Source: an uncultured Clostridia bacterium (GTDB taxonomy: Bacteria; Bacillota; Clostridia; TANB77; CAG-508). Taken from it: DNA of 64,000 nucleotides. Below the pieces are notes generated by a model that saw nothing but the letters and a program-made list of their open reading frames with translations, did not search any database and was not told the DNA's origin. Within the stretch, counting starts at the first letter, position 1. Every line of letters begins with the position of its first letter. Below are positions 1 through 30,428 of this stretch, piece after piece. Location: positions 1 through 64,000 of the forward strand of contig CALXCA010000006.1 in the NCBI GenBank assembly GCA_944386685.1, written 5' to 3'. The position numbers were made by a program, and so were the translations under genes.

Positions 1-103
1 AAAGGGTGCCATAAAATTATTTTAGAAATTCTTATATTTCCGTATTGAGTCGAAAAATTTATGCAATTATTAATATAACCAAATTTTTACTGAATTATAA
101 CCA

Positions 104-1150: not shown

Positions 1151-1179
1151 ATTTTATTACAAAAACAGTTTTATGTCAA
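1151..1179 (-). promoter_or_regulatory. Promoter of trpS
   Basis: On the minus strand TTGACA (1174-1179), a 17-bp spacer and TAAAAT (1151-1156). It lies just upstream of the trpS ribosome binding site. Confidence 0.7.
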
Positions 1180-1216
1180 GAACATTGAAACATTTTTGAA
1201 ACTTTAAAATTACTGT

Positions 1217-1622
1217 ATAATGGTCTTGAATGAGATAAAGAAACATTGATACTATAATATTTTAAAGCTTCGACGCTTGATTGAAAGAACAATAGCGGAC
1301 TTTTTTAGGCATTTTATATGTTTATAACGTTTTAAAGTCCGCGTTATTGTTCGCGCGCCAAATTTTACAAAGTAAAATTTGTGTGCATTCGTTTGAGCGA
1401 AGCTCTTTTCTTGAATAGGAAAAAGCGATTTTTCCTATTCAATGAAAATTAGAATTCATTTGGCTTTTGCATGAGGAATGTTCACGGTACTCGAGTTTAC
1501 GAGAGGGTCGGAGTGAAAGAGGCTCATGAAAAAGCCTTATGAATTCTTTTTGAATGGAATGAACAGGAGAACTTTAAAATATTATAGTATCAATGTTTCT
1601 TCATCTCATTCAAGACCATTAT
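1217..1622. mobile_element. MITE-like element with 51-bp terminal inverted repeats
   Basis: The whole trpS-spoIVB gap is occupied by this element. Positions 1217-1267 and 1572-1622 are inverted copies of each other over 51 nt with one mismatch. Inside are several nested hairpins: GAACAATAGCGGACTTT paired with its complement at 1334-1352; AAATTTTAC/GTAAAATTT at about 1360-1380; TTCG/CGAA at about 1388-1401; a 14-bp perfect stem at 1411-1442; and a 25-nt imperfect inverted repeat, 1451-1475 with 1523-1547. It encodes no transposase. The right end abuts the spoIVB stop codon. TA dinucleotides lie in the termini, which would fit a TA-targeting (IS630/Tc1-like) MITE, but target duplication cannot be told apart from the repeat itself. 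The alternative is a large structured RNA closed by the terminal pairing. Confidence 0.7.
1286..1443 (+). repeat. Dispersed hairpin repeat, copy A
   Basis: About 158 bp that recur with high similarity at 30270-30428, and in part, inverted, at 18967-19005. It consists of four consecutive hairpins, the last being TTGAATAGGAAAAA, loop GCGA, and its complement (1411-1442). It is more GC-rich than its surroundings. Some stems, such as GCGCGCC against GTGTGC, need G-U pairs, which hints at function as RNA. Confidence 0.8.
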
Positions 1623-2843
1623 CTAGTAACTTTTTGGATTTATCATTTGATCTGCAAAAACTGCATATCCTATTTGTGGATCATTTACCAGCACATGTGT
1701 TATTGCTCCAATTAATTTTCCATTTTGAATAATAGGAGATCCACTCATTCCTTGAATTATTCCACCAGATTTAGAAATTAAGTTTTCATCTGTAATTTTT
1801 ATAACCATACTTTTATTATCATAATTATTATTTAGATATATTTTTTCTATTTCTAATTCATATTCTTTTACCTCTCCATCTATTCCACTTAAACAAGTTG
1901 CCTTGCCTATTTCTATTTCCCCCCTTGAAGCAACTTTCATTTTTCTATTATAGTTTAAGTTTAAATTACTTTTATTTTTTACAATTCCATAAATTCCAAA
2001 TTGAGTATTATTATAAATACTTCCAATGCAAGAATTATTTTTTATTGAACCCTCAATTCTACCTGGCTCTTCTTTTTCTCCTTTAACTACAGATATTATT
2101 TCTACATCATCTATCTCTCCAGAAGATGTTTGAATAATTTCTCCTGTATCAATATCAGTAATTGCATGTCCTAATGCAACAAAAGAATTTTCCTCTTCAT
2201 TATAAAATGTCAATGTTCCTACTCCAGCTGCACTATCTCTTACCCATAGTCCTAATTTATAATTGCTTTCTTTTCCCAATATAGGAGTTATTTTTGCACT
2301 TTTTTGCTCACTCTCATGTAAATATGTTATTTCAATATCATTTCCTCCAGATTTGTTTATTTCTGTTATTAATTCTTTTGTACTATTTATAGAAACACCA
2401 TTTATTTCAATAATAGAATCTCCTTCTTGTATTCCTGTATTTTCAAATGGTTTATAAATTTTTCCGTCGTTTCCCTCAATTGATGTAGTTCCAACTACTA
2501 GTACTCCATTTGTATATAATTTTATACCTACAATTTCTCCAGACGGTATTACTTCTATTTGTTCCAAAACTTCTACATTAATGGTTTTTAATTTTATTTT
2601 ATTAAATAAATTTACTTGTAATTTTTCTTTTCCTATTTTATTAAAAGTACTTGAACTTAAATTACTAGTAGTTTCTATTATTTCATCATTTTCTTTTTCT
2701 ATATTAATTCCCCATAATGTTGGAATATCTATATTTTCACCTTGAAAAATCTTTATATTTATTGGAATATTATCAATAGAAACAATATAAGAATACATAA
2801 AAAAAAGTACAAATAATAAAACAAACTTTTTTAAGTACTTCAT
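1623..2843 (-). CDS. spoIVB: SpoIVB-like S55 serine peptidase
   Basis: Forespore-secreted serine peptidase; in Bacillus SpoIVB cleaves SpoIVFA, which releases pro-sigma-K processing in the mother cell. The N-terminus has a membrane/signal segment at residues 6-22. A PDZ domain spans about 105-180 (EGDSIIEING) and the S55 domain runs from about 190 to the end. The catalytic His lies in VALGHAITD near residue 226 and the Ser in GMSGSPII near residue 367; this spacing matches the known family. The length of 406 residues is close to the family norm. AAAGGAAAG precedes the ATG. In many clostridia spoIVB is followed by spo0A; here it is followed by the hairpin element and trpS. The stop codon touches the element's right end. 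Confidence 0.93.
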   Translation of the reverse strand: MKYLKKFVLLFVLFFMYSYIVSIDNIPINIKIFQGENIDIPTLWGINIEKENDEIIETTSNLSSSTFNKIGKEKLQVNLFNKIKLKTINVEVLEQIEVIPSGEIVGIKLYTNGVLVVGTTSIEGNDGKIYKPFENTGIQEGDSIIEINGVSINSTKELITEINKSGGNDIEITYLHESEQKSAKITPILGKESNYKLGLWVRDSAAGVGTLTFYNEEENSFVALGHAITDIDTGEIIQTSSGEIDDVEIISVVKGEKEEPGRIEGSIKNNSCIGSIYNNTQFGIYGIVKNKSNLNLNYNRKMKVASRGEIEIGKATCLSGIDGEVKEYELEIEKIYLNNNYDNKSMVIKITDENLISKSGGIIQGMSGSPIIQNGKLIGAITHVLVNDPQIGYAVFADQMINPKSY

Positions 2844-17206: not shown

Positions 17207-17365
17207 GATTGGGGACAGACCCTAACCTTGATGATTGGAGACAGACCCTAACCTTGATGATTGGGGACAGATCCTAATCGTTTAAAAATAATTAAAATTT
17301 GTACTAAGTAAATAACGGTTAGGGTCTGTCCCCAATCATCAAGGTTAGGGTCTGTCCCCAATCGT
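17207..17365. repeat. Cluster of GGGGACAGACCCTAA repeats, direct and inverted
   Basis: Three forward units (near 17207, 17233, 17259) and two inverted units (17315-17337 and 17343-17364) of GATTGGGGACAGACCCTAAC around a 34-bp AT spacer. The arms can fold into a long hairpin. The last unit lies inside the 3' end of the MYG1-family gene and supplies its last five codons (I-G-D-R-P) and stop. Related GGACCGACCCTAA units occur at 19007-19070. They resemble REP-type palindromes; no transposase is nearby. Confidence 0.85.
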
Positions 17366-18364
17366 TTTTTCTGCTAATCTTATTGCGTCTTCTTTAGTTT
17401 TTGTTACACAAATAAATCTGTTTGTATGGCAAAATGTTGCTGTTTCAATTCCACTTATTTTTTGAAGTTCTTCATTTGTTAAACCTGCCCAACTTTCTGG
17501 AAATAATTTTCTTGATTCAAAGCTTCCTAATTCTTTTGGAACAGAATATATATCATATCCCCCTCTATTTGATGGAAATATGACAAACAATATATTTTTT
17601 GCTTTGTCATTATCTGTTTCTAATAAAAATTCTTTCCATGGCATAAATCTATCTAAAATTAATATTTGATTTTCTGATCTTTCAATTGCTTCTAAAACTT
17701 TGGACTTTGCTTTAATTTTAGATACTGCACTTATTATAAATCTATCAAATATTGTAGATGCAAATTCTACAGCTTTTATAAAACATTCATCTTGGTTAGA
17801 TGTTTCATCATCCCAGTTTGAATTATACATTGTAATTAAATTTGGTAATGTTATAATATCAAAATCAAATTGAGATAATTTAGCTAATTGTCCATTATCA
17901 ACTGCATCTATATTTTGAACTAGTTTATTATCAATCATTTTCCATATATCATCAATATTTTCTATATTTAAATTCTTTAAAAATTGTTTTCCAAATTGCT
18001 TCCAAACTAATCCAAAAGAAGAATATTTTATTCCATTTTCTCTTTCTCCATTTCCTCCAGGTTGATGATGGTCAAATTTTCCATGTCCTACATCATATAC
18101 AATTCCTTTTATATCTCCACTAATATTTGATGTTCTACATAATTTTAAATATTGTTTAGATTTTTCTAATACTATATCTCCAACTTGTATTAATGGTTCT
18201 TCTAAACTATAACTGCTTGCAAGTTTTAGTAAAAACACTGTACTAAACACTTCATCTGAATGAAATGTTCCATTATGTGTTATTAAATCCGCTTCTTCTA
18301 CATTTTCTGTTATTACTATTTTTTTCTTTGGTAAATCTATTAATTTTTGTTCAATTTCTGTCAT
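17345..18364 (-). CDS. MYG1-family DHH-like protein
   Basis: Member of the MYG1/UPF0160 family, related to DHH phosphoesterases; the human MYG1 protein is a 3'-5' RNA exonuclease, and the bacterial role is not established. The metal-binding motifs are visible: THNGTFHSDE at about 29-38 and FDHHQPGG near 97, with further acidic residues downstream (NIDAVDNGQL). The length is 339 residues. The C-terminus ends IGDRP, coded by an invading GGGGACAGACCC repeat, so the native tail may have been replaced by the repeat. AAAGGAG is 8 nt before the ATG, directly after the stop of a TPR gene remnant. Confidence 0.88.
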   Translation of the reverse strand: MTEIEQKLIDLPKKKIVITENVEEADLITHNGTFHSDEVFSTVFLLKLASSYSLEEPLIQVGDIVLEKSKQYLKLCRTSNISGDIKGIVYDVGHGKFDHHQPGGNGERENGIKYSSFGLVWKQFGKQFLKNLNIENIDDIWKMIDNKLVQNIDAVDNGQLAKLSQFDFDIITLPNLITMYNSNWDDETSNQDECFIKAVEFASTIFDRFIISAVSKIKAKSKVLEAIERSENQILILDRFMPWKEFLLETDNDKAKNILFVIFPSNRGGYDIYSVPKELGSFESRKLFPESWAGLTNEELQKISGIETATFCHTNRFICVTKTKEDAIRLAEKTIGDRP

Positions 18365-30269: not shown

Positions 30270-30428
30270 AGAACAATAGCGGGCTTCTTTTAACATTTTA
30301 TAAGTTTATAACATTTCAAAGTCCGCGTCATTGTTCGTGCGCCAAATTTTACTTTGTAAAATTTGTGTGCATTCGTTTGAGCGAAGCTCTTTTATTGAAT
30401 AGGAAAAAGCAATTTTTCCTATTCAATA
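30270..30428 (+). repeat. Dispersed hairpin repeat, copy B
   Basis: Same order of hairpins as 1286-1443 with scattered substitutions. The last stem is ATTGAATAGGAAAAA, loop GCAA, and its complement (30394-30427), 15 bp perfect. The long terminal inverted repeats of copy A are absent here. It fills the gap between the two polysaccharide operons, with the promoter upstream and a terminator downstream. Confidence 0.8.

Follow-up and report, generated by a model that had tools for sequence, protein, structure and literature searches.

A palindromic MITE and an unrelated small hairpin element nested inside it at the end of a spoIVB-like gene of an uncultured Clostridia bacterium

Introduction

Bacterial MITEs such as RUP of pneumococcus, Correia/NEMIS and ERIC are small, A+T-rich, non-coding and palindromic elements, which occur in many intergenic copies and carry terminal inverted repeats (TIRs) and target duplications (TSDs) (PMC2229807, PMC10969869). 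Nested insertion is known for the pneumococcal BOX, RUP and SPRITE repeats (PMC10969869), which form clusters of different small hairpin repeats lying one in another (PMC10969869, PMC3049150). MITE transcripts are known to form stable stem-loops, and YPAL/RU-2 of enterobacteria, a repeat of about 168 bp with internal inverted repeats, targets sites at or beside dyad symmetry with duplications of 3–26 bp (PMC2229807). REP/RAYT and IS200/IS605 elements have hairpins, a strand preference and no TSD, and in IS608 the target is paired with a guide (PMC8266576, PMC5934647).

Here we analysed a stretch of 64,000 nucleotides (the window) from an uncultured Clostridia bacterium, and our results showed that a 406-bp palindromic interval in it is a composite of a small non-coding transposon (B) and an unrelated small hairpin element (A) inside B. 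B shares the listed properties of RUP, Correia/NEMIS and ERIC, but it has no TA ends, its core hairpin is common across genera while its TIRs differ, and its parent element was not found. The nesting of A in B is like that in the BOX/RUP/SPRITE clusters, a likeness by description between different organisms. A resembles YPAL in its internal inverted repeats and its sites, but shows no duplication and prefers T-tracts after hairpins; it also has the hairpins, the strand preference and the lack of TSD of REP/RAYT and IS200/IS605, but is longer, and in its own genome the ends of the IS200 and the RAYT do not match those of A. One odd hairpin has thus led to two repeat families that Rfam does not contain and that are spread over dozens of genomes in a single uncultured gut Clostridia family. 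No description of either family was found in the literature, which is weak evidence of absence from few searches.

Results and discussion

The interval holds two elements, one inside the other

The preliminary description had proposed a single element at 1217-1622, with a near-perfect TIR enclosing five or more hairpins and touching the stop of a gene which we, like that description, take to be spoIVB. The TIR is real. Its arms (1206-1267 and 1572-1633) form an inverted repeat of 62 nt with 94% complementarity, and the arm identity is 98% over 1217-1267/1572-1622. The 406-nt strand folded at −174.8 kcal/mol, whereas shuffled sequences gave −85.2 ± 5.3 (z −16.8) and none of 100 equalled it, so the inverted repeat is not due to chance. 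About five hairpins were seen between the arms, as proposed. The claim of one element with these ends did not hold. The terminal repeats of B (GTTACTRGATAATGGTC) match at 1209-1227 (+) and 1612-1630 (−), which sets the span of B at 1209-1630, slightly further out than proposed. When the own genome (G000, 1.93 Mb) was searched with the 406 bp, the 84 matches fell into two separate sets, one covering query positions 1-79 and 225-406 (B) and the other 69-232 (A). The features are collected in Table 1.

Table 1. Features of the composite element and its surroundings, in positions of the window
Feature	Position	Strand	Basis
Element B, MITE (outer), interrupted by A	1209..1630	.	TIR at both ends; copies and alignment; family TSDs
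B left TIR, first letters ATTACTGTATAATGGTCTT	1209..1267	+	Inverted repeat and TIR match
B right TIR, minus-strand first letters GTTACTAGATAATGGTCTT	1572..1630	-	Inverted repeat and TIR match
Element A inside B	1287..1442	+	Intact paralogous B copies as empty sites; covariance model, 190.4 bits; about 30 genome copies
Hairpins of A: GAACAATAGCGGAC..GTCCGCGTTATTGTTC, CAAATTTTAC..GTAAAATTTG; end hairpin TTGAATAGGAAAAA..TTTTTCCTATTCAA; gene-sense strand is minus			
B conserved core hairpin AGAATTCATTTGG..ATGAGGAATGTTCACGG..GAGTGAAAGAGGCTCATG..GAATTCT	1451..1547	+	Model R1, 151 bits
spoIVB-like gene (name assumed), final codon and stop (TAC TAG) inside B right TIR	1623..2843	-	Comparison with G167
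trpS promoter-like TTGACA-17-TAAAAT, between B and trpS	1151..1179	-	By eye; conserved in G167

The element was said merely to touch the spoIVB stop. It does lie at the gene end, but the stop codon (TAG, 1623-1625, minus strand) and the last sense codon TAC are inside the terminal repeat of B (GTTACTAG). A search for empty sites by trpS synteny within the genus failed because the gene order is not conserved. The empty junction was obtained from a sister genome (G167, uncultured Clostridia bacterium BRZ_HA__bin44, the genome of locus L112), whose trpS-spoIVB flanks are 98% and 85% identical to ours and which has neither A nor B, with a tandem array of GGGACCGACCCC repeats where the own genome has B (L286/L287). 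SpoIVB ends with ADQMINPKSY* in the own genome and with ADQMMN* in G167. B would therefore seem to have landed at the spoIVB end, where its TIR now appears to provide the stop (...QMINPKSY* versus ...QMMN*), and such repeat families are able to rewrite gene ends. Since the trpS promoter-like motif stands between B and trpS, B parts the two genes and cuts neither, so that the insertion probably did little harm. At the G167 junction about nine tandem GGGACCGACCCCAAYARCAAAA repeats were counted; in the own genome this motif flanks the RAYT gene (L251).

B is a MITE family

B is a palindromic MITE, and its family shows TIRs and target duplications of 8 bp. The TIR pattern GTTACTRGATAATGGTCTT gave 38 matches in the genome versus 5 for the reversed control. 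About 25 copies of B were found, including internally deleted ones; some TIR pairs bound derivatives of only 66-81 bp, and family members without A are 65-275 bp long. Only chance ORFs were seen, without coding capacity. An exact 8-bp TSD flanks 6 of 26 B-family elements, which exceeded shuffled pairings: GTTTTAAA and TTTTTAAC in the own genome, and AAATAGTA, AACTCTAT, AAATGTGT and GTCTTTTT in a second genome, G097. The mean TSD agreement was 4.4/8 in the own genome (3.1 when shuffled) and 5.6/8 in G097 (3.3 when shuffled, and no shuffle reached it). The window copy itself has no clear TSD, with about 4/8 bases agreeing (degenerate). The G097 relatives carry another TIR, GTTACAATTCACGGCATA, at 84 places, and despite this their core hairpin is still recognisably related.

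Common TIRs, a fixed-length TSD and short, non-coding, multicopy members are what define a MITE, and the MITE alternative of the preliminary description was right for the outer element, which also has an element-free orthologous site. The search for other full copies and empty sites that it had suggested gave about 25 copies of B and about 30 of A in the own genome, with both kinds of empty site. The absence of other copies and of a transcript had been named as the sign of a local duplication; the own genome was found to hold dozens of copies, and many genera have more. A local duplication or foldback with no mobile history is refuted by these copies and is scarcely credible.

The own genome encodes an IS200 TnpA (contig C22) and a RAYT (C15), and both were rejected as movers, with ends unlike those of A or B. 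Two candidates for the parent of B were also rejected: between the TIRs of a 3-kb pair on C9 lie ordinary genes, and the gene inside a 1.1-kb pair in G097 is, by eye, no transposase. Among the Y1 (IS200, RAYT) elements and the TIR pairs inspected, no transposase with ends matching A or B was found. A DDE-type transposase that acts on the TIRs may have mobilised B in trans.

Other B-like sequences were also noted. Positions 1-84 (+) of the window are the 3' half of another B-family element, severed by the start of the contig (C6); the match is weak (E 0.6) and supported by eye. The repeats probably break assemblies, and the contig of the window begins inside one. At 2875-2971, just upstream of spoIVB, lies a TIR-bounded B-like derivative of about 97 bp (GTTACAAATTC..GAATTGTAAC), whose flanks agree in 6/8 bases by eye. 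The TIR-bounded elements at L230-L232 of G097 have modular interiors, some with GTAGGGGCGAACA..TTCGCCC hairpins replacing the B core or beside it.

A was inserted into B

A is a hairpin repeat of about 156 bp, unrelated to B. Uninterrupted B copies read CTTGATTGAAATGAAAATTAG, while the window reads CTTGATTGAAA, then A, then TGAAAATTAG. A was inserted into B, and the intact sister copies represent the empty site. By this comparison no base of B was lost or duplicated at the junction, where a 2-bp AA duplication would be indistinguishable from none. The core, described earlier as part of one unit, is therefore partly a second, independent mobile element. For two other A copies, G167 did not provide a clean empty site.

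On its gene-sense strand, A begins with TTGAATAGG and ends with TATTGTTC, and a terminator-like hairpin with a T-tract often directly precedes it. A strong hairpin was found upstream in 11/26 copies and downstream in 0/24 (tandem copies set aside), a post hoc count whose cut-off was picked once the data had been seen; over all copies, upstream and downstream hairpin strength did not differ significantly (p 0.12). About 20 copies are without part of the gene-sense first end, and the other end is precise. In several genomes A copies stand head to tail with zero spacing. A has hairpins at its ends and no TSD, as IS200/IS605-type elements do. In the window, A would have inserted later than B, without target duplication, at a T-rich spot on the far side of the B core hairpin (in gene-sense direction). 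This site resembles those of other A copies, directly after terminator hairpins and T-tracts.

Group IIC introns insert just after terminator hairpins, in sense with the upstream gene, and A is like them in insertion position. It could thus have been placed by reverse transcription in their manner, with truncation at one end, which would agree with where it stands, behind terminator hairpins in sense orientation, and with its one precise and one ragged end. But A has only about 156 bp and no intron ends, and no intron family was matched in Rfam at E 10, which makes this route very improbable.

Some further A-like sequences were observed. A second full copy lies in the window at 30271-30426 (+) (186 bits; intergenic by coordinates only), and a weak match at 17256-17432. 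Another small hairpin repeat, the third seen here (TTTCACTTTGAGTTGCGTAACTTAAAGTTTCATATTG with its variants), often adjoins or breaks A copies (L017, L025, L026, L068, L304). At L240 (1164-1261, genome G013) an A-like copy is near an IS200 element, possibly by coincidence.

Distribution across genomes

Covariance models were used to follow both families. In the sample from the bacterial family, model R1 detected the B core in 23/117 genomes and 15/39 genera, and model R2 detected A in 40/117 genomes and 25/39 genera. A pattern scan of GTDB genomes for the B core gave at least 111 stretches, and the matches listed are from MAGs named uncultured Clostridia or Eubacteriales. One match in Erysipelotrichaceae (L183) was set aside as chance; it looks like GC-rich coding sequence and has no palindrome. 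The B core pattern was not found in viral contigs, nor the core in phages, nor the whole 406 bp in plasmids. Neither A nor B was matched by Rfam 15 at gathering score in the window and 16 relatives, and a search of the interval to E 10 likewise gave no support for a known RNA family.

Stem covariation fits DNA palindromes better than a conserved RNA

The preliminary description had considered an ornate multibranch RNA, favoured by G-U pairs in the stems, and had suggested a covariation analysis. The covariation is very strong. In 36 diverse B cores, aligned without structure, 20 of 27 pairs have changes on both sides. For A this holds for 35 of 46 pairs, and the covariation score is 0.417, whereas shuffles gave 0.116 and slid structures no more than 0.067, in an alignment which was fitted to model R2 and hence leans towards structure. 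However, the covariation runs beyond the end of A into the flanks: the base just outside A pairs with an internal base in 46/50 copies (related copies, not 50 independent cases), versus 33% by shuffling.

The composition of the stems did not bear out the RNA. Almost all pairs are Watson-Crick; G-U makes up about 2-4% of stem pairs in aligned copies, and A-C is not rare. The B core has 22 G-U versus 10 A-C among 970 pairs, and A has 26 versus 15 with one fixed wobble left out. In contrast, 35 tRNAs of the same loci have 48 G-U versus 0 A-C among 740 pairs, a generous control as ARAGORN favours pairing. The scarce G-U, the non-rare A-C and the covariation beyond the end of A together suggested that maintenance of DNA palindromes fits better than a conserved RNA. 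Strong covariation in mobile palindromes, even where it spills into the flanks of the host, can be mistaken for that of a conserved RNA, and a simple test for such false calls is whether G-U is scarce and A-C non-zero.

Several features still speak for functional structured RNAs carried by the mobile elements, with the B core and A selected as RNA read off the + strand, which for most neighbours is the antisense strand. Besides the covariation, most B cores have the invariant internal loop GAGGRATGTTCA/TGAAAGAGGCTC, A has one fixed G-U pair, the + strand gives the better fold in 28/28 A copies and most B apical loops, and the B inner stem has 11 G-U versus 2 A-C. Both families are also strand-biased: relative to co-directional neighbours, the B family is antisense 60:17 (p 9e-7) and A 19:3 (p 9e-4), and for A the counts were again 8:0 (G167) and 13:4 (other genomes). 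The fold preference for one strand and the antisense bias are unexplained by a purely double-stranded DNA view. But most copies, being antisense, are not simply part of their neighbours' transcripts, no Rfam family matches, the presence among genomes is patchy, and the G-U and flank results oppose selection as RNA. We consider it improbable.

In a few A copies flank and arm do not match. They include the window copy, which is flanked by native sequence of B, and L017, an insertion absent from G167; both would be young. In the tandems of L323 and L327, the first bases of the next A copy deviate from the consensus and match the arm of the upstream copy. We infer from these few young copies that flank-arm matching arises by correction of the palindrome in DNA after insertion. 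Template switching in the hairpin may correct the arms against each other, which would give compensatory changes without G-U intermediates, even outside the element.

The main rival to this correction step is guided target choice. A may move as single-stranded DNA, in an IS200/IS605-like (HUH) or other guide-pairing way. On the gene-sense strand it would insert 3' of TTTTN, a target recognised by an internal guide (NAAAA) next to the left hairpin of A, and the flank match would reflect the choice of target. The missing TSD, end hairpins, zero-spaced tandems, strand bias and flank-guide pairing are as expected for such movement, and target choice by such pairing occurs in IS608 (PMC5934647). 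But the two youngest-looking A copies do not match at the decisive base, conservation in the left flank of A is only loose, and the ends of the IS200 and RAYT of the genome are unrelated to A. This movement is a possible, if doubtful, account, and it agrees on the nesting of A in B. An extended form can be offered rather speculatively: A could be a new class of enzyme-less mobile hairpin whose internal guide beside the end hairpin pairs with the terminator T-tract, with duplication-free insertion in a fixed direction, and the flank-guide covariation would be a record of target choice.

We prefer palindrome correction. Very probably, the locus holds two nested non-autonomous mobile elements, of which B was mobilised in trans and A inserted later, both kept mainly as selfish DNA palindromes. 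At another locus, G167 (L291) lacks a B-type core that the own genome has (L009, 939-1023), apparently by deletion between short direct repeats (GAAATT), which is consistent with hairpins forming in DNA.
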